A stretch of DNA of 53,359 nt from positions 1 through 53,359 of the forward strand of contig NZ_PVWJ01000018.1 in NCBI RefSeq assembly GCF_003003775.1, in the 5' to 3' direction. Below are positions 978 through 35,400 of the stretch, piece after piece; positions within the stretch are counted from its first letter, which is position 1, and every line of letters starts with the position of its first letter. The notes under the pieces were generated by a model. It saw only the letters and a program-made list of their open reading frames with translations, was not told the DNA's origin and did not search any database. Both the position numbers and the translations under genes were made by a program. This DNA comes from Merismopedia glauca CCAP 1448/3. Its GTDB lineage: Bacteria > Cyanobacteriota > Cyanobacteriia > Cyanobacteriales > CCAP-1448.

Positions 978-1022
978 GTACGTTAAGTTGAACCCTCCTC
1001 AAACCAAACTTCTGGAGCATTT

Positions 1023-3362
1023 ATGACTGCTATTCAACCAACAAATTCTGACAATTCACAGGTTAGTGAGGCTAGACGATTCCTAAAGCCATTGAAGCGA
1101 AAATTATGGCTTAATTCGATTGGATCTCGTTTATTCCTCTCCATTATGACAGGGGCTGTAGTTGGACTGGGTATTACAGCCACCCTATTTTATCAAACCC
1201 TTGAGCAACGTTCCACCTCTGAAATTCGCGGTATTTTGAATAACCAGGTGGGTAATATTGAAACAAAACTAGGTGAGACTAGATATTTTATCAAGGGTAT
1301 GGCGAGTACCATTGAATTTGCCCGAAATCAGCAGGGTATCCAGTCAAAAGAAGCCTATAAACAACTGGTTTTAAACTCCTTCTTGAAGCGCCCTCCCCTA
1401 GCAATGGCAACTTACTTCCTCCAAACCTCTAGGGGTGTGGTGTCTGATACTGAGTGGTTTGGGCCTTACTACTATGTCGATCAAAAAGCATCAGGTCAAG
1501 TCGGGAAAAAATTACCTGCTCCCAATAGCAATGTTATTTATTCAGAGCTATTTGCAGACGATAATTATCCAACTAGGGATTACTACAAAATTGAACTAGC
1601 CGCTCCAGAAGAAAACTTTTATATAGAACCCTTGGATTGGTATGGCATTACCATGACATCCTCTATGACCAAAGTGCGCGATCGCCAAAATAAGGTCATT
1701 GGCTTAGCTGGAGTTGATATTAGTATCAACCAGATTAGTCAAGGCATTCAGAGTTCGGTGCTTGATAATGCAGGTTATTTCACCCTATTGAGCGCGCAAG
1801 GTAAGTTGCTATCTTATCCTCCAGATCCCAAGAAGGCAAAGGGAATTGAGAGCTATGAAACTATTCCTGCACTCAAGCAAAACTGGAATCAACTGGCAGG
1901 GCAAAAGTCTGGATTGATTCGCGAGGGTGGAAATTACTGGTTTTATCAACGGGTTCCCAGTAATAATTGGTTAATGGTTGCTGTTGTGCCAGAATCTGTA
2001 GTTAAAGCACCTATTTTACGGATTACGTTATTGGGGACACTAGTGGCAGCAGCTATTTTGGCTGGCATTGTGGCTTTATTTGTGCAACGTTTGAATCGCG
2101 GCTTGAAACCGATTCTAGATGAATGTAATAAGTTGGCAGCAGCAGATGCTTCGACTCAGGAGTTACTGAATAATCAAGATGAAGTAGGTCAGTTATCTAC
2201 ATCATTTTTTAATCTATTGAATCAAGTTAAACAAAATGAAGACACTCTTCGTCAAGAATCAGCGATGCGTTTAGCGCTTGAGGAAGAGCAACGACGGGCG
2301 ACAGAGACGGAAAGTGTAATTCTTCAGAATGATATTGAAAAACTCCTCAACGTTGTCAGCGCCGTAGAAGAAGGAAACCTGACTATTCAGGCTCCCGTGA
2401 GCGATCGCTTGACTGGATTAATCTCTGATACCCTAAATCGGCTGATTGAAGAACTGGCTGCGGTGATGGCTCAGGTGTCCAGCGCGGCTCAAAATGTATC
2501 TAATAATAGCCAGCGTTTACAAGGTATTGCTGGAACAGTAGCCCAAAACGCCAACCAACAGGCTGATTCTGTCTCTGAAGCTCTCAGTCTTTCTAGTCAG
2601 GTGGAGAAATCTGCTCAAGCAACAGTTGAGGAGCTACAACACTCTAATGAAATCCTGCTGTCGTTGATTCAGAAGGTAAAAGAAGGTCAGAAAGCTATTA
2701 ATAGCTTGACTCAAGGCACTACTGTGCTTCAGCAAGGAACAGATCAAATTATTCAGCAAATGAAAACTATGGGCGAATTTGTGGGTCTAGCAGAACAGTT
2801 GGTACAAGATCAAAACCACATTGCCACCCAAACTCAAATTCTAGCTTTGAACGCATCTTTAGTAGCCGCCCGTTCGGCTGAACAAAAAGATCCGCGTAAA
2901 TTTGCGGCGGCTGCTCAAGAATTTGAAGCTATCGCCGATCAAGTCAGTCAGTTAGCACAACAAACAAACGAGGGTTTAGCCAGTTTAGAACAACGTACCG
3001 CTCAAATTCAGAAAGTTATTGCTAGCGTTGACACTGAGGTACAAGGCTTAGGAAGTCTGGTTACTGGCTTCACTCAGGGTGTAGAACAATCGAATTTAGC
3101 CTTTAATAGCGTGCAAGCTGTCACAACCACTATTGTGGAAACCAGCGACCAAGTTGCTCAATCTAGCCAAGAAATTATTCAGCGTGCCCAATCTACGGCA
3201 TCTGCGGTGAAAGCGATCGTGGACTTGGCACAGAAAACGGCTGACTTAACCCTAGATGCTCGTCAGCAATCTGAATCTATGGGGCAGTTATCAGCCCAAT
3301 TACTACAACGGATCGAGTTTTTCCAATTACCTGCTATGGCACTTCAACCGACAGAAAAATAA
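1023..3362 (+). CDS. Methyl-accepting chemotaxis protein, PilJ/PixJ-like, first of a tandem pair
   Basis: A 779-residue inner-membrane chemoreceptor. TM1 is at about 37-57, followed by a periplasmic region of about 270 residues whose WFGPYYYVDQ, FYIEPLDWYG and VIGLAGVDISI patterns fit a double Cache sensor. TM2 is at about 333-354, then a HAMP region, a coiled coil, a second HAMP-like segment near 436-480 (DRLTGLISDTLNRLIEEL), and a helical signalling hairpin. The tip (about 596-650) reads ILALNASLVAARS, a diverged form of the LLALNAAIEAARAGE consensus. No GAF domain is present, so this is not a bilin-binding phototaxis receptor like PixJ1. A GGAG ribosome-binding site at 1014-1017 supports the start. 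It should signal through the neighbouring CheW-like protein to the hybrid CheA. The ligand is unknown. Confidence 0.9.
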   Translation: MTAIQPTNSDNSQVSEARRFLKPLKRKLWLNSIGSRLFLSIMTGAVVGLGITATLFYQTLEQRSTSEIRGILNNQVGNIETKLGETRYFIKGMASTIEFARNQQGIQSKEAYKQLVLNSFLKRPPLAMATYFLQTSRGVVSDTEWFGPYYYVDQKASGQVGKKLPAPNSNVIYSELFADDNYPTRDYYKIELAAPEENFYIEPLDWYGITMTSSMTKVRDRQNKVIGLAGVDISINQISQGIQSSVLDNAGYFTLLSAQGKLLSYPPDPKKAKGIESYETIPALKQNWNQLAGQKSGLIREGGNYWFYQRVPSNNWLMVAVVPESVVKAPILRITLLGTLVAAAILAGIVALFVQRLNRGLKPILDECNKLAAADASTQELLNNQDEVGQLSTSFFNLLNQVKQNEDTLRQESAMRLALEEEQRRATETESVILQNDIEKLLNVVSAVEEGNLTIQAPVSDRLTGLISDTLNRLIEELAAVMAQVSSAAQNVSNNSQRLQGIAGTVAQNANQQADSVSEALSLSSQVEKSAQATVEELQHSNEILLSLIQKVKEGQKAINSLTQGTTVLQQGTDQIIQQMKTMGEFVGLAEQLVQDQNHIATQTQILALNASLVAARSAEQKDPRKFAAAAQEFEAIADQVSQLAQQTNEGLASLEQRTAQIQKVIASVDTEVQGLGSLVTGFTQGVEQSNLAFNSVQAVTTTIVETSDQVAQSSQEIIQRAQSTASAVKAIVDLAQKTADLTLDARQQSESMGQLSAQLLQRIEFFQLPAMALQPTEK

Positions 3363-3451
3363 CCTGATAGGGGAGAGGTTCTGCCACAGCACTACTGCCT
3401 TCTTTCGTAAGCTATTTTATCTGAGTTAAAAATTTTTATTTTGGAGTAAAT

Positions 3452-5866
3452 ATGACTAAATTACCAATAGAGTCCCTAAAAAAACCGGAATTAGCTAAGC
3501 TAAAACCTTTCGGACTAAAATCCATTGGTTCGCGCCTATTTTTAGCTGTACTAGGAGGTGCCATGCTGGGCTTGGGCACTGTGGGCTATTTTTCGTACCA
3601 ATCCTCAGAAAAGCAAGACGAAATTGTCATCGCTGGTAATTTAGAGAAAGCTGTCAAAGACCTAGATGCTCAACTTCAAACTGGTCAATCTTTCCTCAAC
3701 AGTATGGCATCATCCATTATTTTTCTATCTACAAACAAGAATCTACCACCGAACGATTACAAGCGCTTTCTGATTTCTCAGATGCCTGCTCGTCCCTCTT
3801 TGGTGACTGGATTTGGGGTGATGCAAACTCCTAAAGGTCTAGTACAAGAACGACAGTGGTTTTCTCCCTATATTTTTGAATATACAGGCGATGCGATCGC
3901 ACACGTCAAGAATGGGAAAGCAGAAAGATTAACTAAGCCGTACGAGCAATTTGCCTACGGTGATTTGCTAGTAATAGATGAATACTTTAAACAAGATTAC
4001 TATAAAGACACCGTTAAAGAGACAACTCCTGTCTGGACTGAACCCTACATTACTTCAGATGCATTCCTACTGACGACCTACGGTGGAGCGATTAAAGATA
4101 GTCAAGGGAAAGTAATTGGTGCTTTTAACGGAGATGTCAGCCTTAAAGATTTAGTATCTGCCCTCAACGGCAAGTCTGTTTTGCGTCAAACGGGTTACTT
4201 TGCCTTATTAAGCAGTCAGGGAAATGTCTTAGCTTATCCCTCTCAAGGTGAAAAAGTAGAGCTTCTAAGTAGCGCTGAGAAGAATCCAAAATTAAAGGCT
4301 ATTTGGACTCAGATTCAGAAAAATAGCTCCAAGCAGCCCACTGGAATTATTAAATTAGATAATTCTTCTGAGTATTGGGCTTACCAACGGGTTCCTAGTT
4401 CTAACTGGGTGCTACTGGCAGCAGTGCCTTACTCAACTGTAACCAACATTGCCCTCCAAAACACTCTAACTGGGATTGCAGTAGTGGCTATGATCCTAGC
4501 AGTGGTTGTCTTTGTCTTTGGCCGATATCTAAACCGCCGTCTCCGCCCAATTTTGGATGAATGTAATTCAATTGCGGGAGCAGATGACTTAATGTTGGCA
4601 AAACTGAAGCAGCAGGATGAGGTTGGTCAAGTATCTGTTGCCTTCTTTAACTTGATCGACCAGTTAGGTGAAAAAGAACGACAAATTCGGGAAGAAACGG
4701 CTCGCGCAGTTCAGCAGCAAGCAGAACTAACCTTAGCGGCTCAGCAACAAGAGGAAAGTGAAGCACTCCAGCAGGATGTTGAGAAACTGTTGGAAGTTGT
4801 TAGTGCGGTAGAAAACGGAGATCTAACTATCCAAGCTCCAGTGAGCGATCGCGTGACTGGATTGGTATCCGATACCTTCAACCGTCTAATTGAAGAATTG
4901 AACCGAGTCATGTCAACCGTTTCTACCACGGCTCAGCAAGTGACAGGTAGCGCCACCGATCTAGAGCAGTTGGCAATGCAGTCCTCCCACCAAGCCAAGC
5001 AACAAACCCAGGCGGTCGATCGAATTAAAGTCTTGGTACAAGATGTGACTGAACTTACCCAGGATAATACCGCACAAACAAGTGAGGCTGATGCTGCCGT
5101 GCAACAAGCTCAAAACGCCGTGAACCTGGGACAACAGCAGATGAATCTTCTTAATGAAGAAATCGAGTCTCTTCAAGGTGGAACCACCCAAATTACACGG
5201 CGGGTGCAGACTCTGACAGAATTCGTGCAGTTAGCAGTGCAGTTTGTGAAGGCTCAGAAACGCACGGCATCTATGACTCGCGTTTTGGCACTTAATGCTT
5301 CTCTACTCTCGTCTAGGGCTATGGAGCAGCAAGATCCCGAACAATTTGCCAGCATTGCCCGCGAGTTTGAAACCATTACATCTCAGGTTAACGATCTGGC
5401 TAACCAAACCAACCAAGACTTAGTTATCCTCCAGCAACGAACCGATCAGATCCAGGCAGTTGTATCTGGTTTGTCAGAAGACGTAAGAGAAATTAACCAG
5501 GTGGTGCAGGTTTTTACCGCAGGTGTGGACGAATCTAACCAAGTATTTGAAAACATCCAGTCAGTCACCAGCCGAGTCGTGCAAGTGGGACAGCGCGTAG
5601 CTGAATCTAGTTTCGTGATCGCCCAAGTATCTCAAACTACACTGACTTCTGTCCAGGATATTGCGGCTTTAGCAATGGCAACAGAGCAGCGTGCCGATAT
5701 TACCCGCGAGCAATCTAGTGCAATGGGACAAATTTCCCGTGAGTTGTTAGAGATCATGAGCTTCTTCAAAATATCTGCTGAAGAGATGCAAGTAAGTCAA
5801 AGCTCGTTCGATCGACCAGATCGTGTCAACAATCTAATCGAGCCGACTCTTTCACGAATCGGTTGA
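3452..5866 (+). CDS. Methyl-accepting chemotaxis protein, PilJ/PixJ-like, second of a tandem pair
   Basis: An 804-residue paralogue of the preceding receptor with the same architecture: TM1 at about 28-50 (SIGSRLFLAVLGGAMLGLG, very like the first copy), a Cache-type periplasmic region, TM2 at about 337-358, a HAMP, a second HAMP-like segment (DRVTGLVSDTFNRLIEEL), and a signalling hairpin with tip VLALNASLLSSRA near 611-623. Cytoplasmic parts are much more alike than the periplasmic parts, as expected of a local duplication whose copies now sense different ligands. TTTTGGAGTAAAT immediately precedes the ATG. A short acidic and polar tail follows the hairpin. No GAF or other photosensor domain is present. 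The spacer to the upstream gene is 89 bp, so co-transcription is likely. Confidence 0.9.
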   Translation: MTKLPIESLKKPELAKLKPFGLKSIGSRLFLAVLGGAMLGLGTVGYFSYQSSEKQDEIVIAGNLEKAVKDLDAQLQTGQSFLNSMASSIIFLSTNKNLPPNDYKRFLISQMPARPSLVTGFGVMQTPKGLVQERQWFSPYIFEYTGDAIAHVKNGKAERLTKPYEQFAYGDLLVIDEYFKQDYYKDTVKETTPVWTEPYITSDAFLLTTYGGAIKDSQGKVIGAFNGDVSLKDLVSALNGKSVLRQTGYFALLSSQGNVLAYPSQGEKVELLSSAEKNPKLKAIWTQIQKNSSKQPTGIIKLDNSSEYWAYQRVPSSNWVLLAAVPYSTVTNIALQNTLTGIAVVAMILAVVVFVFGRYLNRRLRPILDECNSIAGADDLMLAKLKQQDEVGQVSVAFFNLIDQLGEKERQIREETARAVQQQAELTLAAQQQEESEALQQDVEKLLEVVSAVENGDLTIQAPVSDRVTGLVSDTFNRLIEELNRVMSTVSTTAQQVTGSATDLEQLAMQSSHQAKQQTQAVDRIKVLVQDVTELTQDNTAQTSEADAAVQQAQNAVNLGQQQMNLLNEEIESLQGGTTQITRRVQTLTEFVQLAVQFVKAQKRTASMTRVLALNASLLSSRAMEQQDPEQFASIAREFETITSQVNDLANQTNQDLVILQQRTDQIQAVVSGLSEDVREINQVVQVFTAGVDESNQVFENIQSVTSRVVQVGQRVAESSFVIAQVSQTTLTSVQDIAALAMATEQRADITREQSSAMGQISRELLEIMSFFKISAEEMQVSQSSFDRPDRVNNLIEPTLSRIG

Positions 5867-6006
5867 TCGGAAAATTAACCCTTAATTTAATTTTTGTTGT
5901 CCCATGTCAGCAATTAGTAGTCTCAGCTTGCTAAATGTTGATATGGAGACGCAGAGACTTTTTATTATCACTAATTAAACAGATTTGACATAAGGTATCA
6001 AACACC

Positions 6007-8991
6007 ATGTCTGAACTAACAGACCGCTCTCTCAAACTCGAAGTAGAACTACAATTGCAGCAAGAATTGCGGGCAATGTTTGATGTTGATAGCCAACGCT
6101 ATCTGCTTTCTTACCTCCATCTAGTTGAACGCTTGAATTCCCAGTCGTGGACGGCGGATATGCAGGAGATGTATCGCGCAATTCACACTATTAAAGGTGG
6201 CTCTGTCACTGTAGGAGCAGAGGCTTGCCTGAAATTGGCAACGGTATTGGAAGATTTATTGTCAGATCTGCGCCATCTGAGTCCTGCTCCTCCTTTGGGT
6301 GATGGACGAGTGGCTGAGATGCTGCAAGAAGCTGGGGAGTTACTAGCTAGCAGCCTCCAGATAGAAGGAACTAAAGAATCTGCCATAGCCAGAGTTCAAC
6401 CTTCCGTAGAGCGAGTTCAAGCTCTGCACGAGCAGATTAAAGCGTCCTATTTATCTGATTGGAACGAACAGCGTTTCTTGCACCAGGAGTTTGCCGATCA
6501 AGGATTCGGTTTGGTGGTGCTGGATTTGGAAATGGCAGTCGATAAACTGGCTAGTCAGGGAACTGTCCCCCAGTCTGCGATTGACATCGCCACCCAAACC
6601 CTTGCTCAATTGAGCGAAATTGGTCAAGATTTAGAGTTTACCCCAGGTTGGAGCGAATTAATCGACTGTTGCCATGCACTCGTGGGCGAACCTTCCGTAG
6701 AGATGTGGCGATCGCAATGGTCTGGGTATTTAGCTGCCTTGCAAGAGTCTGCACGCCAGGGGGGTAAGGCGATCGCACCTACTTTTACAGCACCACTACC
6801 CACCAAAGATTGGTTTCCTGAATCAGATGCTTTCAATTTGGCAGAATTTCCGGTCATATATCCAGATTTAAGCGATATAAATTTTGATAGTCTGGCGATC
6901 GCTTCTTTTGAGCTAGATATTCCTGTCATAGACAACTGCCCTGAAACCGCAGAAATCGACCCGAATGACTGGTCTGCTTTAGAGGGTTTAGCCGATTTGT
7001 CCAATTTGGATGATTTCTCCGACGATAGCGAACTAATAGAAGATGACTATGCGGCTTTAGCTGAAAGCACTCAAGGTTGGCTAGGTCTGGTTTCCCCAGA
7101 TCCCCAGGCAGAAATTACCGTCGCCACCGTTCGCTCTAGCCGCGCTGATTTAGAGATAGGCGATCTTCAAATTCCCGTCCCCCTAGAACGCCTGGACAAA
7201 ACCGCTCAAACCCTGGTAGAAACCCTCCTCAGCGTCCGAGCCTCTCAAGGTGTTTATCAAAATCTGCAATCTCAACTAGCCCAACTTTTAGTCTTGGCTC
7301 AAGATAGCGCTCAGTACATTACAGAATTGCGAAAACTACAAGATAGTTACGCCCTCTTGGATGACTTAAAAACTGAGCGACACTCTACAGATAGCCCTAC
7401 TCTCGAACGCTATCGCCAAGGTTACAGTACCATTAACCGTTTACTGGAAACCAGTTTGCGTCTCTCAGAATTAGGGGCTGAAGCCAACAAATCTGCCCAA
7501 CAAACCTCAAACAACCTAAAAAACCTGGATCGTAACGTCCTCCGCCTCCGCCAAAACATCGAGCAAAGCCGTCTGGTTCCTTTTAAAAACTTGGCTTTTC
7601 GAGCCAAAGCAGTCCTCCGCGATTTAACCATCCGTGGCGGCAAACAAGCTCAGATAGTCATCGAAGGAGAACAAATTGAACTGGATGCAGCTACAGTTTC
7701 GCAGATAGAGCCAGCGATCTTACACCTGATTCGCAATGCTTACGATCACGGGCTGGAAAGTACCCCAGAGCGGATTTCTTCTGGTAAGTCGGAGTCAGGA
7801 ACCATTACCCTCTCTCTGAAACGGAGTGGCAGTCGCTATCTGTTGGAACTCAAAGACGATGGGCGTGGAATTGATGCCAATCGCATCCGTCAGTCTGCAA
7901 CAGCCAAAGGCTTGCCTTTGACCCAAACCGACACATATAACCAGCTTTTAGCCGTTATTTGCCAACCTGGCTTTAGTACCCAGGAGGTTGTCAGCGATAT
8001 TTCTGGTCGTGGTGTGGGTATGGATGTTGTGGCGAACCAAATTGAGGCTTTAGGTGGACGACTCCGCCTGGAAACCAAGGTTGGTCGTGGTACGACCTTC
8101 CAACTTCAGTTTCCCGTACCGCAACTGCTGGTATCCTGCGTGTTATTGCGGGTTGGCGATCGCCCCTTCGCGATTCCCGTCCAGGATATTGCCACTACCG
8201 CTATCTGGGATACTTTACCAACTACTTCTGTCGAAGATACCAACACAATCTACTCTTGGGAAGTCAAACAAGGTGAAATATCGGTGCCAGCATTATATTT
8301 GATGGACTACTGGCAGCCACAATCTTTGACACACAATATTCCTAGTACAGCGATCGCATTGCGGGTTTACTCTGTTGAACGAGAGCAAAGTCTCTGGATT
8401 GTGGTTGACGATCTGATAGAACAGACAGAACTTTTGCTCACGCCCTTACCTAACCCCCTAGAGGCTCCTGTAGGTGTTTTGGGAGTTAGCCTGCGTGCCG
8501 ATGGTAGCCTGATACCTGCTATAGATGCAGCTATGCTGGTCGAAATTATCTCGCAAACAACCCAACCTGCGATCGCTGACCCACTCTTAACTCTAAGTAC
8601 AGTTTCTTCTGAACCATTAAACTTACCCTACGCCACCCGCACGATTCTAGTCGTGGATGATGCGGCTTTGATGCGTCGGCGGATCGAGGCAAGTTTGACA
8701 GCCTATGGTTATTCTGTCGTCACCTGTGGCGATGGACTCGAAGCCTGGAACTGGCTCCAAAGCCACACAATTCCAGCTATGTTGATCACAGATGTTGAAA
8801 TGCCAAATATGGATGGCTTTACCCTGATTGACCGAGTGCGGCAGTCTGGTATTACTATGCCCATTATGGTAGTTTCGTCCCGTCTGGCAGAAGAGTGGAG
8901 CAAGGAAGCTCAGCGCTTGGGTGCTAACGATTATCTGACTAAAGGCTTTACCACTCAAGACTTGGTTAGTAAAGTGGAGGCTCTGTTATAG
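6007..8991 (+). CDS. Hybrid CheA-type histidine kinase with C-terminal receiver (PilL/PixL type)
   Basis: A 994-residue soluble chemosensory kinase. An N-terminal Hpt domain has phosphoacceptor His60 in AIHTIKGGS. An acidic, poorly conserved linker covers about 280-360, and a helical dimerisation region about 390-530. The ATPase domain shows an N box HLIRNAYDHGLE at 573-584, a G1 box DDGRGID near 617 and GRGVGMD near 666. A CheW-like domain (about 700-850) and a receiver from about 875 with phosphoacceptor Asp929 (LITDVEMP) complete it. It should autophosphorylate on His60 in response to the two MCPs and pass phosphate to the CheY-like protein and to its own receiver. The start is preceded by AAGG at usual spacing. 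Only one Hpt is present, whereas some PilL homologues carry several. No cheR or cheB is visible here. Confidence 0.93.
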   Translation: MSELTDRSLKLEVELQLQQELRAMFDVDSQRYLLSYLHLVERLNSQSWTADMQEMYRAIHTIKGGSVTVGAEACLKLATVLEDLLSDLRHLSPAPPLGDGRVAEMLQEAGELLASSLQIEGTKESAIARVQPSVERVQALHEQIKASYLSDWNEQRFLHQEFADQGFGLVVLDLEMAVDKLASQGTVPQSAIDIATQTLAQLSEIGQDLEFTPGWSELIDCCHALVGEPSVEMWRSQWSGYLAALQESARQGGKAIAPTFTAPLPTKDWFPESDAFNLAEFPVIYPDLSDINFDSLAIASFELDIPVIDNCPETAEIDPNDWSALEGLADLSNLDDFSDDSELIEDDYAALAESTQGWLGLVSPDPQAEITVATVRSSRADLEIGDLQIPVPLERLDKTAQTLVETLLSVRASQGVYQNLQSQLAQLLVLAQDSAQYITELRKLQDSYALLDDLKTERHSTDSPTLERYRQGYSTINRLLETSLRLSELGAEANKSAQQTSNNLKNLDRNVLRLRQNIEQSRLVPFKNLAFRAKAVLRDLTIRGGKQAQIVIEGEQIELDAATVSQIEPAILHLIRNAYDHGLESTPERISSGKSESGTITLSLKRSGSRYLLELKDDGRGIDANRIRQSATAKGLPLTQTDTYNQLLAVICQPGFSTQEVVSDISGRGVGMDVVANQIEALGGRLRLETKVGRGTTFQLQFPVPQLLVSCVLLRVGDRPFAIPVQDIATTAIWDTLPTTSVEDTNTIYSWEVKQGEISVPALYLMDYWQPQSLTHNIPSTAIALRVYSVEREQSLWIVVDDLIEQTELLLTPLPNPLEAPVGVLGVSLRADGSLIPAIDAAMLVEIISQTTQPAIADPLLTLSTVSSEPLNLPYATRTILVVDDAALMRRRIEASLTAYGYSVVTCGDGLEAWNWLQSHTIPAMLITDVEMPNMDGFTLIDRVRQSGITMPIMVVSSRLAEEWSKEAQRLGANDYLTKGFTTQDLVSKVEALL

Positions 8992-8998
8992 GGGATTT

Positions 8999-9022
8999 GG
9001 GACTGGGGACTGGGGATTGGGA
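8999..9022. repeat. Short heptad tandem repeat (GGGACTG type)
   Basis: About three 7-base units, two GGGACTG and one GGGATTG, just after the hybrid CheA stop. This is the kind of short tandemly repeated heptad (STRR) common in cyanobacterial intergenic DNA. The 180-bp gap holds no other recognisable feature apart from the second array at its far end. Confidence 0.65.
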
Positions 9023-9152
9023 AGAGGGGGTCGTTTATTTCCTTTACCCTTTAGTCATTTCAGCAATTCTCCTGGTCCCAATTCTTCGTAGATTGTAAAA
9101 AACCTACCCTTGTGAGTGTCCCCCTTGTCCCCTGAAACCCGAAATCTGAAAA

Positions 9153-9190
9153 ACTCCCTACTCCCTACTCCCTACTCCCTACTCCCTACT
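9153..9190. repeat. Heptad tandem repeat (ACTCCCT x5) entering the 3' end of a gene
   Basis: Five perfect copies of ACTCCCT followed by ACT. Read on the minus strand the array encodes the last residues VGSRE and the TAG stop of the GGDEF-EAL gene ending at 9172, so the repeat replaces the native end of that gene. Confidence 0.9.
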
Positions 9191-11319
9191 TTAGAACCCT
9201 TCAACATCAAAACCTTAGTCGCCTCTTCTGAGGGTAAAGGGCGGCTGAAATAGTAACCTTGCATATAATAGCAGCCAAGAGTTTCCAAGAGATTTTTGAG
9301 TTCGACAGTTTCAACCCCTTCAGCGATAACTCGTATATTCAATCCACGTCCTAACGCCAAAAGTGCCTCGACAATTGCGACATCCTGATGATTGGTAAGG
9401 AGATCGCGGACGAAAGATTGGTCTATTTTTAAGCTATGGAAAGGAAACTGTTTTAGATAGCTCAAAGAAGAGTATCCCGTCCCAAAATCATCCAAAGCTA
9501 TGCTAATACCCATGCTCTGTAAGTCCGTTAAGATAGACCGAGTTGAATCGACATCTTGTAGCGTCGCTGATTCAGTGATTTCTAGTTCCAAGTAATGAGG
9601 TTCTAGTCCGATCTCGGTTAAAGTGTGTTTGATGGTTTGCAGGAGTTGACGATGCTTAAGCTGTCGTGGGGAAAGATTAACAGCTATAGTCATGGGTGGC
9701 ATCCCCATTACTTGCCATGCTTTGGCTTGAGTACAAGCAGTTTGTAGCACCCATTTCCCTATCTGAATAATCAAGCCATTTTGTTCTGCTAAAGGAATGA
9801 AGACTTCTGGAGAGATAAATCCTAACTGGGGATGTTGCCAGCGTACTAGGGCTTCCATGTGGGTAATTTCACCCGTGGTACTATCCAATTGAGGTTGGTA
9901 ATAAACTAAAAGTTCTCTCCGTTCTAGGGCTTGGTACAAACTGTTTTCTAAGGCTAACCTTTGAGTGGATTGGGAGTTCAACGCTTGTGCATAATGTTGG
10001 TAGTCATTGCGTCCTAGTTCCTTAGCCTGGTATAAAGCCGTATCTGCATTCTTGAGTAAGGTATCAGCATCAGATCCGTCTTCGGGATAGATACTGATGC
10101 CAATGCTGCTACTAATACGGATTTGATGTTCTTCTAGTTCAAAACTGGGGTGTAATGCCTCCAGAATTCGTTGGGCGATCGCCGTAGCATCCTCGCGACT
10201 GTGTATATGCGGCAATGCCATTGTAAATTCATCACCACCCCAGCGAGCAATCATATCCTCAGAACGGCAACATTGATTCAGGCGATCTACCACTTGCTGT
10301 AACAAGCGATCGCCCAGAACGTGACCTAGAGTATCATTCACTACCTTAAAATGATCTAAATCGATAAACAGAACTCCCAAAGGCTCCTGTCTCTGGTGTG
10401 CATAAGCCAGAAGTTGAGACAAACGCTCATTAAACTGCTTGCGATTGGGTAATCCAGTTAGACAGTCATGGTGAGCTTGATAATGAATGATTTCCTCGGT
10501 TTGCCGACGTTCTGTAATATCTTGAAAACTCCAAACCCGTCCGACATTCTGCGATCCGAGACATTGGATTTGGGAATAACATTCGATAATTTTACCGTTT
10601 TTGAGGGTTAATATATCGTAGCTCTCTAGGCTGCATGGCTGCTCCCATTCTCTAATTTTGTGATTGAAGGGATCTGAATCTGGGAGTTGCTGCTCAATGG
10701 CGGCTAAAACTTGGTTTTTATGACCATTCAGAGCCACCTCATCCATCATTCCCCAGATATCTAGCAATTTTTGATTGAAATGGGTAACGTTGCCCAGACT
10801 ATCTACTACTAGAATGCCATCAGCCGTAGATTCTAAAGTTGCCCGCAGCAGAGATAGAGACTTTTCTAGATCTTCATTAGCTTGGCGGAGTGCTTGACTT
10901 TGAGCCGTAAGCTGTTGTTCTTGGGCATAACGACGAAGTGCTTCCTTGACGGTCAAAATTAAATCGGTTTCATCCCAAGGTTTGGCAATATAACGGTATA
11001 AATTGCCTGAATTGACAGCTTTGGCGACATCATCAACGTTGATTTGACCCGTCAACATAATAGTTAGGGTGTGCGGGTATTGGGCATGAATTTGGGTGAG
11101 TAATTCATTCCCTGACATTTCTGGCATTCCTTGATCTGAGATAATCAAGGGAATTTCAATTCCCTCTGAGACTAGCTCAGAAAAAATCTCTAAAGCGGCT
11201 GAGGGACTCGTTACTAGCTCAATATCATACTCTTCACTCAAGCTGCGGCTGAGTTGCTCCCCCAAACTGTTGAGGATCAGCAGATCGTCATCTACACACA
11301 CAATCGCAGGCTTCAGCAT
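9172..11319 (-). CDS. Response regulator with PAS, GGDEF and EAL domains (c-di-GMP turnover)
   Basis: A 715-residue four-domain protein. The receiver spans about 1-125 (acidic residues in CVDDDL, phosphoacceptor Asp62 in ISDQGMP, conserved KPW). A short coiled coil leads to a PAS domain at about 150-275 (ESTADGILVVDSLGNVTHFN), a GGDEF diguanylate cyclase domain with intact GGDEF at 361-365, and an EAL phosphodiesterase domain with EAL at 489-491, NLSPRQL, DDFGTGYSSL and a late EGVET. Both catalytic signatures look intact, so it could make or break c-di-GMP; the direction cannot be read from sequence. It begins 3 nt after the stop of the single-domain regulator upstream and is the last gene of a kinase-regulator-regulator operon. 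Its final residues and stop are formed by a heptad repeat array. Confidence 0.94.
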   Translation of the reverse strand: MLKPAIVCVDDDLLILNSLGEQLSRSLSEEYDIELVTSPSAALEIFSELVSEGIEIPLIISDQGMPEMSGNELLTQIHAQYPHTLTIMLTGQINVDDVAKAVNSGNLYRYIAKPWDETDLILTVKEALRRYAQEQQLTAQSQALRQANEDLEKSLSLLRATLESTADGILVVDSLGNVTHFNQKLLDIWGMMDEVALNGHKNQVLAAIEQQLPDSDPFNHKIREWEQPCSLESYDILTLKNGKIIECYSQIQCLGSQNVGRVWSFQDITERRQTEEIIHYQAHHDCLTGLPNRKQFNERLSQLLAYAHQRQEPLGVLFIDLDHFKVVNDTLGHVLGDRLLQQVVDRLNQCCRSEDMIARWGGDEFTMALPHIHSREDATAIAQRILEALHPSFELEEHQIRISSSIGISIYPEDGSDADTLLKNADTALYQAKELGRNDYQHYAQALNSQSTQRLALENSLYQALERRELLVYYQPQLDSTTGEITHMEALVRWQHPQLGFISPEVFIPLAEQNGLIIQIGKWVLQTACTQAKAWQVMGMPPMTIAVNLSPRQLKHRQLLQTIKHTLTEIGLEPHYLELEITESATLQDVDSTRSILTDLQSMGISIALDDFGTGYSSLSYLKQFPFHSLKIDQSFVRDLLTNHQDVAIVEALLALGRGLNIRVIAEGVETVELKNLLETLGCYYMQGYYFSRPLPSEEATKVLMLKGSKVGSRE

Positions 11320-27859: not shown

Positions 27860-29107
27860 TTAACAAAGATTGCTAATTAAAGTCCCAACAAACTGCTTCC
27901 ACGAATGTTGCTGAGCAAAACTTTCCATTTGGGAAATATCACAAACCTTTTTGTAATTACCATCGAGCAATTTGGTGATTTCTTTTGCTAGTGCGTGAGG
28001 TGAGGTCGAATCGACAGTTATACCTAGTTTATTGTTAAGTACTAGCTGACCCATCAGACCATAATTTGAAGATAATACTGGTTTTTGGGCTGCGGCGGCA
28101 AGTAGTAATATACCGCTCATCCCTATATGACGCTGATAGGGTGCGAGGACAGCATCTGCCATTTGAAAATATATATGAACTTCCTCATCAGGAATAAAGC
28201 GATCGCAAACAACAATCTGTATAGGCGAAGACTCAGACACTTCTTTGAGTAGCATCTCTATCATTAATTTTTCTGAGGCAGGTATTGAGCCAGCAAGTAA
28301 TAAGCATATTCGCTCACAGATATCAATTGATAACAACTTAACTGCCTCTATTAACTGATAAATTCCTTTACGCCTTCCCAAACGCCCAAAGAATAATAAT
28401 ACTTCCCTTTGACTATCAATTTTTAATCTCATCTTCAGATCTTTTATTTGAAATTGATTCACGTCATGTATTTCCACGGGATCTGGTAAATATATAATTT
28501 TTGTTTGATGAGTTAGTTTATTTATTTCTGGGATAGCAAATGGATCGAGACAAAATAAAATTTTTAACTGTGGATTTTGCATTGCAAAATATAACAAAGT
28601 TTTTTTCTGCCATTGTTTAATCTGCTCTTGAGCAGAGGGCGTATACTTATTAAAATCTTTATAATGTAATGTAGGTCTAAAATATATCCCAGAAAATGGA
28701 CAAGGAAATTTTGCCCTTAGAGCCATAGGTAACTGTAGAGAATCTAAGTACATAAACAAGCAATGCTGCACTTCTAATTTTTGAGCATATTTTCCCGATA
28801 AAGACCATTCTTTAAAAACACGGGAAATACTATGATTATAAGAGATTATTGCCGAATATTCTGCTTCAGTTATAGCTAAAAATTCAACGTTTTTTTGATG
28901 ATGATTACTGACTAGTTTGACAATATCAGAGTGTTCTTCTAAAAATTTAGGCGAAACAACAATATCTAATTTGCCTACGAACTCTTGGTCAAAGCAGTAT
29001 CTAATTATATACTGAATGTAACTTAAATGATGACCTCCTGTAGCTAAATCAAAGAGCATAATATGCTGTTTGTTGCTAGATTTGTTGACTTTTAAAGATT
29101 CCAACAT
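27860..29107 (-). CDS. Glycosyltransferase-like protein (GT-B), degenerate EX7E
   Basis: 415 residues. The start of the GT-B fold is HIMLFDLATGGHHLSYIQY, and the C-terminal domain has VLLFFGRLGRRKGIYQLIEA and IYLPDPVEI. The usual EX7E motif is replaced by RHIGMSGILLLAAAAQKP, so neither Glu is in place, although the surrounding helix and SSNYGLMGQLV are kept. This may mean an inactive, accessory or altered transferase. The 126-bp AT-rich gap upstream (29108-29233) shows no further feature. It sits between the ligase-like gene and the sulfotransferase. Annotation as a glycosyltransferase-fold protein is safe, catalytic activity is not. Confidence 0.75.
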   Translation of the reverse strand: MLESLKVNKSSNKQHIMLFDLATGGHHLSYIQYIIRYCFDQEFVGKLDIVVSPKFLEEHSDIVKLVSNHHQKNVEFLAITEAEYSAIISYNHSISRVFKEWSLSGKYAQKLEVQHCLFMYLDSLQLPMALRAKFPCPFSGIYFRPTLHYKDFNKYTPSAQEQIKQWQKKTLLYFAMQNPQLKILFCLDPFAIPEINKLTHQTKIIYLPDPVEIHDVNQFQIKDLKMRLKIDSQREVLLFFGRLGRRKGIYQLIEAVKLLSIDICERICLLLAGSIPASEKLMIEMLLKEVSESSPIQIVVCDRFIPDEEVHIYFQMADAVLAPYQRHIGMSGILLLAAAAQKPVLSSNYGLMGQLVLNNKLGITVDSTSPHALAKEITKLLDGNYKKVCDISQMESFAQQHSWKQFVGTLISNLC

Positions 29108-29233
29108 TAATATTTACAAAAAAAATTACTTTAAATATTTAAATCATATTAGAAGATTTTTTGCCTGAAAAATTTCCCAACAATTAGATCTATTTCACAG
29201 CTAGAAAAATCTAATTAAATGATTAGATAATAA

Positions 29234-30052
29234 TTACCATTCATACCCAGTAGCATATCCCAATTCTATGAGAACCTTACCTGCCGTTTCTTTAAAAGCT
29301 TGCTTGTGTTCTTCTGAGAAATGATTTACCCAATCACCTATTTTACCTTTACGAAAAGTTCTGGCTTTAGTGAAGAAAGCTTTCTGAGCTATTTCAGGAA
29401 CTTGCGAAGGGGGTAAATCAATACCTAAATGATTTATGATGTTACTCACAGCTTGAATTTGCTGATCTTCACTACCCTCTCCGGCAGTACCAATTAGATC
29501 CTCGAAGCGAATTGTCAAGCAGTTAGGATCGTTTAACCACGGTACAAAAGCTATAGCGTGTTCTGCGATAGATCCCGATCTGATACCATCTGCAATCAAG
29601 TTTCCATCTACTCCTACAATAGAAGCCATAAGCCTTTCAGAATCAGATGGCAAAGATCTAAAGTAGGTAGATAATCGGTGCCTTCTATTTTTGAAGATGT
29701 AGTAAGCATTAGAAACTGCAATGTCTCTCAAATCACGAATAATAAACAGGGTACGAATATCCCTGTCTTGGCAAATGGTCGTTAGTTCTTGACTCCAATA
29801 AAGATGTGCAGATAAATATTGTCCTCGGCGAATATTTATGATTTTTTGCTCTACTCTCCAAGTATTATGATCGACATGGTATGCCCAACGAGATATCAAT
29901 TGAGGTAATAAAGAGAGAACTCTTGTTAGTAAATGAGTTCCTGATTTGGGCATACTATTAGCTAAAACTTTTGGACCCGAGAAAGAGGTGCTAAATTCGT
30001 TTAATGTGACAGGAAAAAGCAGTTCTGGGATGTAACTTTTAATTTTCAGCAT
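29234..30052 (-). CDS. Sulfotransferase (PAPS-dependent)
   Basis: 272 residues. The 5'-phosphosulfate-binding loop is MPKSGTHLLTR at about 34-44, the catalytic-type position follows in HVDHNTW, and the 3'-phosphate-binding motif is FIIRDLRDIAVSNAY at about 103-117. FRKGKIGDWVNHF near the C-terminus matches the conserved RKGxxGxW signature of sulfotransferases. It transfers a sulfate group from PAPS to a hydroxyl, most likely on a sugar of the polymer built by the neighbouring genes. Sulfated exopolysaccharides are known in cyanobacteria. No PAPS synthesis genes lie in the window. Confidence 0.9.
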   Translation of the reverse strand: MLKIKSYIPELLFPVTLNEFSTSFSGPKVLANSMPKSGTHLLTRVLSLLPQLISRWAYHVDHNTWRVEQKIINIRRGQYLSAHLYWSQELTTICQDRDIRTLFIIRDLRDIAVSNAYYIFKNRRHRLSTYFRSLPSDSERLMASIVGVDGNLIADGIRSGSIAEHAIAFVPWLNDPNCLTIRFEDLIGTAGEGSEDQQIQAVSNIINHLGIDLPPSQVPEIAQKAFFTKARTFRKGKIGDWVNHFSEEHKQAFKETAGKVLIELGYATGYEW

Positions 30053-30097
30053 TGTTTGTTGGTGTTAAGATTATATCTGATTCTAAAGGTATTAACA

Positions 30098-31225
30098 TTA
30101 CCGATTAGTACTGAGAAAATTAAAAATATGTAGATAGGCGTGCGAGGTTTTATCTATTGAGTAATCTTTTAAGTTTCTTTCCCATAGCTTGCCTGGGTTT
30201 TGGTTTGCAGCGTTTGAAATTTCTTCAGAAAATAGCTTTATATTATCAGGTTGGATCAGGGTAACACCTGGGAAATATCGACCATGTTGAAAAGCGGCAA
30301 TATCAGAAGCAATAATAGTAATACCGCTTGCTAGAGCTTCTAAGAAAGCAACACTATGTGCTTCTCGTTTTGATGGCATTAAGTACACGTCTGCTCCAGC
30401 TAGTAATTCAGGTACATTTGTACAAGCACCCAAAAATACGATCGCCTCTTCTAATCCAGAATCAGCTACCTTTTTTTTTAAATTTTGATAGTACTGACTA
30501 TCTTCTACTAAACCTACTAGAAATAGTTTTGCTGATAATAAATAGCTACATTCTCGAAATGCAGAAATGAAAGCTGATACTGAAAGATGCTGCTGTTTTG
30601 TAGATCCAAATCTGCCTATTTGTAAAAAAACTTTTTCTCCATTTTTTACCCGAAATATAGTTTCTCTTACCTCATTTCTAACTGAATTAAGATAACTGAA
30701 ACGCTTCAGATTAATTCCATTAGGTATAACTTCAATTTTAGTGCGATCGCCAATCCTTTTTTGATAGTTATGTTTTGCAGTTTCAGTCAGGGCTATTAAA
30801 TAACTAGGTGGAGGAATGACCCACTTTTCTAGCGATCGCCAGTATTTTGAGGCATAATCATCTTGTGAAGCATTGTGGAGAACTGTAACTGTAGGAATAT
30901 CTTTTCGACCAATTAATTTAAGTACCAAGCGCACATAAGCACTAGGTATAACTGAATGGGCGATCGCAACATCGGGATTTAATTTCTTCAGTTCTCTCCC
31001 TAAAAAAGCCAATCTACTTAACTTTCCCAACATCATTTTAGGAAAAATGAATAAAGCACCTGCATCTTGTAGTTGCTCAATTTCATTAGCAAATGAAGTC
31101 TCTGGAGGTTGAATAGAAATTATAGCAACCTGATTACCCATAGAAATATGACTCAAAGTCAAATCGCGGACTAATATTTCAGCACCAGATAGTCTAGGGA
31201 TATAAATTACATGGCATATTCTCAT
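30098..31225 (-). CDS. Glycosyltransferase family 4 (GT-B fold)
   Basis: About 375 residues from ATG 31225 (MRICHVIYIPRLSGAEILVR). An in-frame ATG at 31240 overlaps the upstream gene by 11 nt and adds five residues. The C-terminal domain shows FLQIGRFGSTKQQHLSVSAF and AIVFLGACTNVPELLAGADV, with EX7E in EAHSVAFLEALASGIT. ATPIGLINPNGINL-like NGINLKRFS marks the hinge. It lies between a methyltransferase and the sulfotransferase, inside the polysaccharide run. Sugar specificity is unknown. The family assignment is firm. Confidence 0.9.
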   Translation of the reverse strand: MRICHVIYIPRLSGAEILVRDLTLSHISMGNQVAIISIQPPETSFANEIEQLQDAGALFIFPKMMLGKLSRLAFLGRELKKLNPDVAIAHSVIPSAYVRLVLKLIGRKDIPTVTVLHNASQDDYASKYWRSLEKWVIPPPSYLIALTETAKHNYQKRIGDRTKIEVIPNGINLKRFSYLNSVRNEVRETIFRVKNGEKVFLQIGRFGSTKQQHLSVSAFISAFRECSYLLSAKLFLVGLVEDSQYYQNLKKKVADSGLEEAIVFLGACTNVPELLAGADVYLMPSKREAHSVAFLEALASGITIIASDIAAFQHGRYFPGVTLIQPDNIKLFSEEISNAANQNPGKLWERNLKDYSIDKTSHAYLHIFNFLSTNR

Positions 31226-31229
31226 AATA

Positions 31230-32114
31230 TTACTCGTCATTATTAAAATTCATAATAATGCCAATTTGATGTACTTTAAGACCTAGCCAACCATTTAATT
31301 TAACCCTGACTTTATGATGATTACTTAAGTTATACATTTGACTTATTTCAGTCCAAATTTCCACAAAAGACTTTTCCATTTCACCACCCAAATCATCCCA
31401 AAATATCACAAACTCGTCTCGATCTAGTAAGTCATATTTTTTGATCATTTCCCATTCATATAATAGGGCTTTTGGACAATGGAGGGCATCAGAAAATATA
31501 ATATTGAACTTTTTCCCTGATAAACATTTCCAAGAATTTTCATCAAACACATCGCCGCTAATATAGGTTACTAAATTATTATTTTTCGGATCGTGATACT
31601 TAGTTAGTGACGAATCTTCCTTTTTATCAGAATCACTGATTGTTAACCATGTAATTCGATCTTTAAAAACTAAAAAATTCTCTAGAACAGGGTTAATTTT
31701 TTCAATATCAAACCCAGTAATATAACTATCTTTCCAAAAATTAATTACTTGCAGAAAGTTTTTGCCTGCGGAAACTCCTATCTCTAAATATTCTATTTTT
31801 TTATTGAGTCGACTACTCAAATACAAAATAGCATCTGAGTAAGTCATCTCTTGTCCAATATCATGATCGATAAGATGCTTTACATATTCAGGTATTCCAT
31901 ATTTAAATATAGATTCTTGATATACAGTATTATCCATCCATTTATCGACTAGATTCAAAGTATCTCTGTTATACTTAATTATTGGTTCAACTTGTTTTCT
32001 AGGAAATAATTTTCTTACCTTTGGCAAATCTCGCATCAAGCGAATTTGATTAGCCAGTCTCCCAGAAAACATTTTAATTTTTGTTATCATTTGACCTGAT
32101 AGAAGATAAACCAT
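31230..32114 (-). CDS. Class I SAM-dependent methyltransferase-like protein
   Basis: 294 residues. After an N-terminal basic region the SAM site is IEYLEIGVSAGKNFLQ at about 107-122, and the acidic residue is in ITGFDIEK. VTYISGDVFDENSW and FNIIFSDALHCPKALLYEW follow as motifs II and III. FVIFWDDLGGEMEK is reminiscent of acidic metal-binding residues of TylF-like O-methyltransferases. The frame starts at ATG 32114, with an alternative ATG at 32090. It overlaps the longer possible start of the next GT4 gene. Methylation of a sugar is inferred from the cluster. The family is likely but more diverged than its neighbours. Confidence 0.75.
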   Translation of the reverse strand: MVYLLSGQMITKIKMFSGRLANQIRLMRDLPKVRKLFPRKQVEPIIKYNRDTLNLVDKWMDNTVYQESIFKYGIPEYVKHLIDHDIGQEMTYSDAILYLSSRLNKKIEYLEIGVSAGKNFLQVINFWKDSYITGFDIEKINPVLENFLVFKDRITWLTISDSDKKEDSSLTKYHDPKNNNLVTYISGDVFDENSWKCLSGKKFNIIFSDALHCPKALLYEWEMIKKYDLLDRDEFVIFWDDLGGEMEKSFVEIWTEISQMYNLSNHHKVRVKLNGWLGLKVHQIGIIMNFNNDE

Positions 32115-32149
32115 CGAAAATTTAAACCGAATTCTGGTTGACTAAAGCG

Positions 32150-32917
32150 TCAACGAACTAATTTAACTAATACTGTATCTGCTGACGTAATTCCATTTAA
32201 CTTAGGTCTAAATAACTGACGAGCTAGTAGGATTATGAATAAAGGAAACTTAGCCATTAATACTGGTATTAATCTTGATTTAATAACCGATTTATTTCTC
32301 CCAAAATTGATCAGCCTAAAAGTATTTGTCGTGCGTTGTAAAGTAGATCTTGTAGATGGCATAAAATACTCAATTTTACACTTTAATTGCCAAGCTAGTT
32401 CATTATATGCCTTTTGATTCCAGCGAGTCATATGGTGGGGTGGATGATTCATGATATCAAACCATCCTTGCTCAAATGACATAGGAGAATAAGGAGTGCT
32501 AATTAAAAGACTACCTGTAGGCTTGAGAAGAAAAAGCATAGACTCAACAAAGTTTTTAGGATCGCTTATATGCTCTAAACAATGAAAAGATACTACATAA
32601 TCAAACTTCAATTCCGAAAATTTCTTGGTAAATGAATCTATGGTTTCACAGTAAACTTCAAATCCTTTTTCTTGGCATTGGGTAACAGATTCTGGAGTAG
32701 TATCAATCCCAACTATGCGAACATTTTGAATATTTTGGACAAGACTAATAAAATTTCCTCCACCACAACCTATTTCTAAAATGGAAACAGGGTTTAATTT
32801 TGCCTGTTTATTGATTTCTTCAATAACTGCAAACCATTCCCATCTAGATATAGGATAGTAACCTACTCTAGTCGTCACCCATTGATAAAATGGTTGAGTA
32901 CCAGGTTCTAGTGGCAC
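32150..32917 (-). CDS. SAM-dependent methyltransferase, catalytic part of a frameshifted gene
   Basis: 255 residues from an internal GTG at 32917. Motif I is SILEIGCGGGNFISLVQ, motif II is YVVSFHCLEHISDPKNF and the next strand LLISTPYSP. The open frame starts mid-protein: reading further upstream in another frame gives a Cys-rich N-terminus (see 33007-33102) as in methyltransferases that begin with a two-CxxC zinc ribbon. Adding one A in the 11-A run at 33024-33034 joins both into one protein, and RCKNCSLEY, the second CxxC, directly precedes the GTG. The C-terminal hydrophobic tail (LIPVLMAKFPLFIILLAR) may associate with the membrane. The gene may be silenced, expressed by slippage, or intact if the base count is a sequencing error. 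Confidence 0.78.
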   Translation of the reverse strand: MPLEPGTQPFYQWVTTRVGYYPISRWEWFAVIEEINKQAKLNPVSILEIGCGGGNFISLVQNIQNVRIVGIDTTPESVTQCQEKGFEVYCETIDSFTKKFSELKFDYVVSFHCLEHISDPKNFVESMLFLLKPTGSLLISTPYSPMSFEQGWFDIMNHPPHHMTRWNQKAYNELAWQLKCKIEYFMPSTRSTLQRTTNTFRLINFGRNKSVIKSRLIPVLMAKFPLFIILLARQLFRPKLNGITSADTVLVKLVR

Positions 32918-33006
32918 AGCATACTCAAGAGAGCAATTCTTGCATCTTCCGATCTCATAGTCTACTATTTGAATCGATTCGGGAGGCTTTTCACCAAAAT
33001 ATTTCT

Positions 33007-33102
33007 CTAATTCTGTAACAATATTTTTTTTTTTAGAGAACGAATGTGGATGGCATCAGAATTACAGATCGGACATTTAGCCAATATTATTGATTGAGGC
33101 AT
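33007..33102 (-). pseudogene. N-terminal zinc-ribbon fragment of the frameshifted methyltransferase
   Basis: From ATG 33102 this frame encodes about 31 residues with the first CxxC (KCPICNSDAIHIRSLKK) and runs into the homopolymer, then stops at TAG 33007-33009. With one more A in the run the frame would continue through KKKNIVTELEKYFGEKPP and RCKNCSLEY into the downstream methyltransferase. The 222 bp between neighbouring genes are otherwise unexplained, which supports the reading. Confidence 0.78.
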
Positions 33103-33139
33103 TGTCAAAATTCCCTTTTATTTCTTCTACTGATTAACT

Positions 33140-33907
33140 TTAATTAAAGTTCAATCGCGCCTTAATTTTACGTGATACTTTTTTGAGATCGAAAACCAGT
33201 TTAACCATAAATGGTTGAATGCCTAAAGGTATAAATTTCGTCCCAAAATCTATTTCTATCCACTTGTCTAAAAACATATTATCTTGATTTTCTAACTCAT
33301 CTGAAGGCAATTCCAGTAGTTGCACATAATCATTCCTGACAAACATCATATTGGCAGTAAAGCACACCAAAGAATATCCTTTGCTTTGACCAAGTTTAAG
33401 GGTAGATGTCCAACTTGATGAACTCATCTTATGATTATGAATATGCTCAATCCCAGGAGGTATATGACCATTAATTTCAATTAGTACGACTTTAGGATTA
33501 TAGTTTTTCAAGCTGTTCCAAATCTGCCAATCGTAAGAATCAATATCGATGCTTAACAGATCGAAATCTACAGGAGTTGGAGTTTTTGCAAGTAACAGAT
33601 CGAGACTGCGATCGCCCTCGATTTCCACATAAGCCTCTATGGGGATAATTTGCCCTGGATATTCCTCAGCCGTTAACATTAAATCTTGAACTCTGGCTTT
33701 ATCACCTTCAATTTCAACTCCCTTCCAACCAGATGAAAGTAGAGAAAAGGTATTGCTTAAATGCTTCCCATCCCAAGCACCGAACTCAACAAACCAACCG
33801 TGAGAAATGTTTAATCTCCTAAAAATTTCCCGTAAAACTCCATCTTCACCTGTTTGACTGGTGACATTATGACGATAGTTGAGTAAGGTAAAATTCTGTT
33901 TTGACAT
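33140..33907 (-). CDS. FkbM-like methyltransferase-fold protein
   Basis: About 255 residues from ATG 33907 (MSKQNFTLLNYRHN). The open frame could extend to ATG 33928 or to a TTG at 33982 that overlaps the upstream flippase stop. The core has SQTGEDGVLREIF, then WFVEFGAWDGKHLSNT, the SAM-binding start of FkbM-type enzymes, followed by FDLLSIDIDSYDWQIWNSL and VVLIEINGHIPP. The variable C-terminal half (NMMFVRNDYVQLLELP) is not matched to a substrate. FkbM-family members methylate sugar or polyketide hydroxyls; a sugar acceptor is most likely here. It lies between the flippase and the frameshifted methyltransferase. Confidence 0.8.
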   Translation of the reverse strand: MSKQNFTLLNYRHNVTSQTGEDGVLREIFRRLNISHGWFVEFGAWDGKHLSNTFSLLSSGWKGVEIEGDKARVQDLMLTAEEYPGQIIPIEAYVEIEGDRSLDLLLAKTPTPVDFDLLSIDIDSYDWQIWNSLKNYNPKVVLIEINGHIPPGIEHIHNHKMSSSSWTSTLKLGQSKGYSLVCFTANMMFVRNDYVQLLELPSDELENQDNMFLDKWIEIDFGTKFIPLGIQPFMVKLVFDLKKVSRKIKARLNFN

Positions 33908-33978
33908 ATTTGGGGGATTCAAGATCATTGAAATTTTGGAAAACCTACTAAAACAGCCGTATGTTATTTTACCTACTA

Positions 33979-35400
33979 TCAAGTTATTTTTAAAGTTTTA
34001 GTAGCTAACTTTGCGGCTGGAATCAGATAAAAAATACTATAGCCAAAAACTGTAGCCCAAATCACACCTGCTGCTTGCCATTGATGTACTAAAACAATTT
34101 TCATCAATAATGAGGCTATAGATGCGGCACTTATAAAAATCACTTGCTTGCTAATTAGAGAACCACTATTGAATAAGGTAGACATGGTGCCTATATAACC
34201 CAACAGAATCAACCAAAACGTAAATCCTATTAAGACAAGTGTAGATGGAACTAAGTTAGGCCCAGCCCAAATAGTGATAATTTTATTGGCAAATATAAAT
34301 AGTATCAAAGCCGTAATAATACCAATACTTGAACTTATAATTAAAGAACGATTTAGAGTTTTCCGCGCCCAATTGTAGTCAGCACGAGCTATGGCTTCAG
34401 CAAAAGCTGGCCATAGAGGAGTGATGAAAAACTGGGAAACAAAGGCTGTGGAAAACAGTTTTTGAGTCACAGCGTAACTAGCTACCGCCGAGGCTCCCAA
34501 AGCTTGCGAAATTATTAAATTATCACTAGCAGTACCCACTACTGTCAGGATTTGGAGAATGAAAAACCACGTACCTGTACCGAGTATTTTTCTACTCGCC
34601 AACCAGTTAAAGTATTTCCATTGAGGAAATAACCATTTGCGGGAAGAACCAAACAAAACAATCCAGTTAATCAGCATTCCCAAAACCGGACCACCTGAAA
34701 TTGCTAGTACTAGCCACGGCAATCCTACCTTAAAATAAACGCCTAGCAACAAACCAGCTAGCCCCATCAACCCACCAACGATCGCCCATAATTGATTTTT
34801 ATAACCTTCTTGATAACCCATCTGCACGCGCTGGGCAATTCCTAGGGGTATATTCACGGCAAAACTAGCAATCAAAACTGCCATAGTTGGTCCTGACTCT
34901 CGAACTGCTAAGTCAGATCTCACATTAAACACTCGCTCCCAAGGAATTAGAGGATATATGCTCGCAAAAACTACCAAAATGAGCATGGCGATCGCCAGTA
35001 GAATAAAGAAAGCACTCGATACATATACCCGTGCTGAGTGGCGATCGTCTTTCCCATCAGCTTCAGCAATAGCATTTAGTAGCCCACTACCCATACCCAA
35101 ATCAGCAAACGATAACAGAGCGATCGCTGAGCTAATAGTCATCCACAACCCATATCTTTCTGTCCCCAAATAATTCACAGTTAAAGGCACTGAAATTAAA
35201 TTGGTTAATATGCTCACCCCTTTACTAGCTACTGAAGCTGCGGTAGTTGCAAACACACGTCGATAGCGTTCTTTGGAACGACCATCTTCGGTCGTTTTAT
35301 CGAAAGATGATAAATGTACCAACGACGTGATTTTTTCCCATCTCCGTTGAATATTTAGACTACGAAAAGCTCGCATATACTTCAGCAATCTCTCTAGCAC
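33979..35400 (-). CDS. Polysaccharide flippase (Wzx-like, MATE/MOP superfamily)
   Basis: 473 residues with about twelve membrane helices after a basic N-terminus of some 50 residues. VFATTAASVASKGVSILTNL opens helix 1, and the early YLGTERYGLWMTISSAIALL and SFADLGMGSGLLNAIAEA follow the Wzx/RfbX pattern. It should flip lipid-linked repeat units across the inner membrane. A second flippase of the same superfamily (38062-39408) lies upstream in the same run, so the cluster may export two different units or one gene may be redundant. It starts 46 bp after the TylF-like gene on the same strand. Confidence 0.9.
   Translation of the reverse strand: MLERLLKYMRAFRSLNIQRRWEKITSLVHLSSFDKTTEDGRSKERYRRVFATTAASVASKGVSILTNLISVPLTVNYLGTERYGLWMTISSAIALLSFADLGMGSGLLNAIAEADGKDDRHSARVYVSSAFFILLAIAMLILVVFASIYPLIPWERVFNVRSDLAVRESGPTMAVLIASFAVNIPLGIAQRVQMGYQEGYKNQLWAIVGGLMGLAGLLLGVYFKVGLPWLVLAISGGPVLGMLINWIVLFGSSRKWLFPQWKYFNWLASRKILGTGTWFFILQILTVVGTASDNLIISQALGASAVASYAVTQKLFSTAFVSQFFITPLWPAFAEAIARADYNWARKTLNRSLIISSSIGIITALILFIFANKIITIWAGPNLVPSTLVLIGFTFWLILLGYIGTMSTLFNSGSLISKQVIFISAASIASLLMKIVLVHQWQAAGVIWATVFGYSIFYLIPAAKLATKTLKIT

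Follow-up and report, generated by a model that had tools for sequence, protein, structure and literature searches.

In bacteria, DNA and RNA polymerases slip on runs of A, and a gene whose frame is broken at such a run can be rescued by the slippage; passages of Baranov 2005 (PMC1088944) name these genes "pseudo pseudogenes". Tracts of 11 A are described, in passages of the same paper and of PMC5574713 and PMC5009743, as hot spots of both replication slippage and transcriptional slippage. An example is visC of Blochmannia, where a single indel falls in an 11-A tract (in an excerpt of PMC3017870). In two endosymbionts the corrected transcripts amount to 12-50%, according to a section of the Atkins 2016 review (PMC5009743).

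A gene with this kind of lesion is found in Merismopedia glauca CCAP 1448/3. It lies in a stretch of 53,359 nucleotides, called the window here. The features are as follows.

33007..33102, minus strand: upstream frame, the N-terminal half with CPIC; 31 codons and TAG
33024..33034, minus strand: 11-A tract (on the coding strand), site of the one-base frame change, with A_AAA_AAA in phase
32150..33034, minus strand: downstream frame, with the remainder of the ribbon (CKNC) and a class I SAM methyltransferase domain (Methyltransf_23)
32915..32917, minus strand: GTG, first common start codon of the downstream frame, unused as a start in relatives
33140..33982, minus strand (same strand): preceding gene of a polysaccharide-type cluster, without a Pfam match
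31230..32114, minus strand (same strand): following gene, without a Pfam match

One ancestral gene in two frames

On the minus strand, the ATG at 33102-33100 is followed further on by TCTCT, the 11 A (33034-33024), and TATTG. The frame of this ATG translates as MPQSIILAKCPICNSDAIHIRSLKKKILLQN and reaches its stop codon at 33009-33007, just beyond the run. The methyltransferase frame, whose stop ends at 32150, is open back across the run and reads KKKNIVTELEKYF...CKNCSLEYA. This open frame has 301 codons and is one base out of register with the ATG frame, so that reading both frames bears out the offset reported in the first-pass annotation. The methyltransferase domain is well supported, PF13489 matching with 71.2 bits where the cut-off is 27, and no second lesion was found in its frame.

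The surrounding genes look like an exopolysaccharide cluster. They include glycosyltransferases, a sulfotransferase, and TylF- and FkbM-type methyltransferases, as named by Pfam, with other roles assigned by eye. The part with the glycosyltransferases and methyltransferases (window 28001-34000) has a GC content of 0.33-0.35, compared with 0.43-0.48 at 1-10000. A scan for promoters and terminators gave chance levels.

Relatives of the gene are few. Scanning 84,980 species genomes gave 45 pattern-matching stretches and two relatives, both from Nostoc (L038, L039). With the single protein as query, four of 388 genomes of the order matched at 1e-40, namely the genome itself, G373, G135 (50%) and G289 (30%); with the alignment as query, the genome itself was the sole match at 1e-50 among 388 of the class. 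Since G373 and L047 are the same 113,027-base contig as L038, they were counted once; the 30%-identical L050 was left out. This leaves three distinct relatives that were read, the two from Nostoc at about 60% identity and the third at 50%.

All three read as a single open frame that begins with an ATG before CPxC, passes through CxNC and continues to the end of the protein. At the site of the tract they have CTAAAAATAATATT, CTCAAAAAAATATT, or no run, and hence no long A run, compared with 11 A in the window. The two halves of the gene in the window align gap-free at the run only when the frame is moved by one base. Against the two Nostoc copies, the changes are biased to third positions alike in the ribbon, the linker and the body, with amino acid identities of 10-11/14, 27/36 and 30/40, respectively. 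Up to the break at least, all three parts therefore evolved as coding sequence. Taken together, the single frame of the relatives, the gap-free join and the shared bias indicate that the ancestor was one gene and that the GTG start arose through the break.

Judged by these comparisons, the two pieces are halves of one ancestral gene. The proposal that a zinc-ribbon-like N-terminus and the methyltransferase form one protein, which a single base in the A run divides, thus holds. Orthologues starting at the GTG had been named as what would count against it; the relatives instead start at the ATG upstream of CPxC. GTG 32917 was rejected as the true start for this reason, and because the 36 codons that precede it are conserved like the body. 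The frame break itself is, against the three distinct relatives read, private to the genome of M. glauca CCAP 1448/3.

Homopolymer runs in the genome

One account of the private break is a sequencing or assembly error, in which the cell's own tract keeps the frame and the gene is normal. This option had been raised by the first-pass annotation. It agrees with the otherwise undamaged frame, and passages of Antonov 2013 (PMC3711429) lead one to expect that homology-supported frameshift singletons are mostly sequencing errors. The tract is also one of the two longest A runs in a draft of 254 contigs. On both strands of the 5,204,926-base genome, A runs of length 8 number 254, those of length 9 number 30, those of length 10 three and those of length 11 two. 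With a single other A11 in 5.2 Mb, the tract is exceptional for the genome. That other run (C45:33737-33747) crosses no open frame of at least 80 codons. When all 35 runs of at least 9 were read in context, two were seen to cross a broken gene: the methyltransferase A11 and a run between reverse transcriptase and Cas1 (RT|Cas1).

As a check on general homopolymer miscalling, runs of at least 7 crossed by open reading frames of at least 600 nt were examined in 1.57 Mb of the 5.2 Mb, together with 12 loci of runs of at least 9. Each run was counted once per strand, and runs classed as "other" (unbroken and outside a 600-nt frame) were kept out of the total. The crossings found intact number 248 (A 135, T 90, G 13, C 10); a 10-A run in an open reading frame (L040) and several 9-A runs are intact. 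Only two broken candidates were found at runs of at least 7, CHAT|NACHT at an A8 and RT|Cas1 at an A9, both with the same offset as the methyltransferase. The methyltransferase break itself goes unflagged, since the rule requires 300 nt of upstream frame.

Because both of these breaks recur in other species, both are real and neither is an assembly error. Their recurrence and the 248 intact crossings argue against a generally poor assembly, and unexplained breaks are absent at the other runs of at least 7 in the tested stretches. General homopolymer miscalling was thus rejected for the stretches examined. The check speaks for runs of 7-9, whereas the methyltransferase tract is the only A11 lying in a gene, and frameshift singletons are usually errors. 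An error confined to this tract is a lesser possibility, with a weight that is far from negligible.

Six further candidates at runs of 6 (five A6 and one C6) were assessed by eye. Four of them (L086, L094, L098, L153) were rejected as broken genes, being neighbouring genes by eye. At L091:16065-16070, a transposase-like gene appears split at a C6 run. At L143:15566-16353, close to an A6 run, a kinase-like N-terminus continues as an FGE-sulfatase-like frame (names by eye), which looks like a chimera or a decayed gene.

Recurrent junctions in two defence genes

The first recurrent junction lies at C73:10121-10129 (L079:1501-1509). Here an RT frame (PF00078) meets a Cas1 frame (PF01867) at an A9 run, with a one-base offset. 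At 1e-60, 86 of 388 genomes have a Cas1 relative, and 30 of the loci were examined, the genome's own included (the others are L102-L130). An A8-A10 run lies within the RT/Cas1 overlap at 19 of the 30 loci, or 18 of the 29 others. Of these 19, 18 have an offset of -1, and L106, with an A8, has +1. A further three loci are split and lack a run within the overlap (L104, L120, L121). At five loci RT and Cas1 share a single frame (L117, L118, L125, L126, L128), two more seem fused from the length of the frame alone (L129, L130), and L119 is cut. When 13 A9 junctions are set side by side, the run is constant and the flanks vary.

Split RT and Cas1 genes are attributed to "secondary fissions" in a passage of PMC5513706. 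Among the titles and abstracts found for RT-Cas1, or reverse transcriptase and Cas1, with frameshift or slippage, none treats the junction as recoding; the passages retrieved from PMC6753606 and PMC9048733 concern matters other than RT-Cas1 recoding. The recurrence of the run within the overlap suggests fusions made by slippage rather than gene fission. Orthologues that differ in the direction of the frameshift are given as a sign of transcriptional realignment in a passage of PMC3711429, and the single +1 locus, L106, may be such a sign here. In three of the five fused loci (L117, L118, L126), the stretch from the RT motif to Cas1 contains an A8-A9 run, at which slippage would give RT alone, by analogy with dnaX of Thermus. 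The recurrent RT|Cas1 site is more surprising than the methyltransferase break.

The second junction lies at C5:50680-50687 (minus strand; L099, L191), where CHAT and NACHT frames meet at an A8 run that holds A_AAA_AAG in phase, with an offset of -1. NACHT is a Pfam match and CHAT was named by eye from its motif. The CHAT pattern could be scored at five of 30 loci (L191-L220), the genome's own with A8 and four from other species with A9 (L192, L193, L207, L216), all of them -1 and all split; the other 25 are unscored because the pattern did not match. A literature search on frameshifting between CHAT and NACHT in cyanobacteria gave no paper.

As these two breaks in defence genes recur across species, the A-run breaks of this genome are not to be dismissed as errors. 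A wider view, offered tentatively and held to be less than probable, is that slippage at A8-A11 runs is an established form of decoding in these cyanobacteria, with RT-Cas1 and CHAT-NACHT fusions produced at kept sites and the A11 methyltransferase a recent recruit. If so, both fusions would be made alongside separate upstream products, and surface-sugar methylation would be held at a low, noisy level by tract length. The recurrent breaks also predict that cyanobacterial RT and Cas1 genes of the kind called split by fission in PMC5513706, as excerpted, are joined by slippage. Taken alone, the methyltransferase adds one to the genes that would be split or labelled dead in annotation, though it possibly works.

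The methyltransferase break and known systems

As sequence the finding is real, and it is ordinary in kind: a private one-base change of length in a long A tract of a single gene. The explanation preferred here, at roughly even chances, is a recent one-base slip in a hypermutable tract, which left the gene turned down yet leaky. In this model, the whole of 33102-32150 encodes a single methyltransferase of about 320 residues, whose N-terminus carries a metal-ribbon-like segment (CPxC/CxNC). Its A tract would be one base short, or two over, and we infer recent replication slippage as the cause. The majority of transcripts would give a 31-residue peptide. A minority would give the full enzyme, either through an A added by RNA polymerase or through a -1 slip of the ribosome on A_AAA_AAA. 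The enzyme would then probably methylate a sugar in the cell-surface polysaccharide that the surrounding genes produce.

Tracts of 11 A are expected to slip, from work on slippage. The gene is for this reason judged to be lowered rather than lost, and with a minority of products at full length it would be turned down rather than dead. The suggestion that the gene is expressed through slippage is plausible and in line with the other A-run sites of the genome, and the methyltransferase with its one-base change is probably leaky. The tract in phase contains A_AAA_AAA, a site for -1 ribosomal slippage. No stimulatory RNA structure beyond chance was found downstream of it (z 0.15), so a ribosomal frameshift with a stimulator was rejected, and the heptamer alone remains as a possible ribosomal site. 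A phase-specific Markov coding model showed no signal at the tract; this weak model called nearly everything "weak" and was not used.

Another model, also among the options of the first-pass annotation, is true phase variation, in which the length of the DNA tract toggles the methyltransferase on and off and so varies surface methylation. The 5'-proximal position of a long mononucleotide tract in a likely surface-polysaccharide gene would suit it, such tracts being a usual device according to a passage of PMC3711429. It is nevertheless unlikely: the relatives are without the tract, and the literature retrieved on homopolymeric-tract phase variation and cyanobacteria gave, in the parts available, no cyanobacterial case.

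The gene may also be a dead pseudogene at an early stage, having suffered a single indel and losing its N-terminal half unless recoded. The frame is free of a second lesion, however, and slippage is expected at an A11, an expectation that passages of PMC1088944 and PMC5009743 support, which makes this account improbable. Least probable of all, with only a slight chance, is a programmed recoding conserved for the methyltransferase. The recoding-like A-run sites in two other genes of the genome, common to other species, lend it some colour, but all three distinct relatives read in frame, with neither the slippery tract nor the offset conserved among these three orthologues, and no stimulator was found downstream.

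For the enzyme itself, the top Foldseek matches of a model of the Nostoc relative are the dTDP-sugar C-3'-methyltransferases TcaB9, KijD1 and MtmC, with probability 1.00, E-values of 1e-13 to 1e-11 and about 320-340 columns aligned. The matches have 12-15% identity, a TM-score of about 0.5 and an rmsd of about 12 Å, and the query model is a moderate one (mean pLDDT 67). In these three enzymes the N-terminal domain binds zinc. The Pfam domain of this N-terminal part, which we take to be Methyltransf_13, is absent from the Pfam matches of the full-length relative at E<=0.001. From these matches, the substrate is likely a nucleotide sugar or a glycan.

For the break, Thermus dnaX and the programmed transcriptional slippage of IS elements offer one comparison, since an A9-type tract stands at their frame change, as here. 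The methyltransferase tract is not conserved, whereas the RT|Cas1 site is a better likeness to these systems. The "pseudo pseudogenes" of Blochmannia and Buchnera resemble the present gene in having a single indel in at least 9 A, a frame that is otherwise intact, and orthologues in one frame. The homologues encoding the methyltransferase in one frame, and the single indel within an A/T run of at least 9, are also two of the features of slippage-rescued genes in Baranov 2005, the third being a corrected mRNA or protein. Those cases come from endosymbionts, while the present one comes from a free-standing 5.2-Mb cyanobacterial genome, and its rescue is a prediction. By analogy, the methyltransferase has its nearest precedent in these endosymbiont genes, which share the lesion, and it is best read as a "pseudo-pseudogene" of this known kind.
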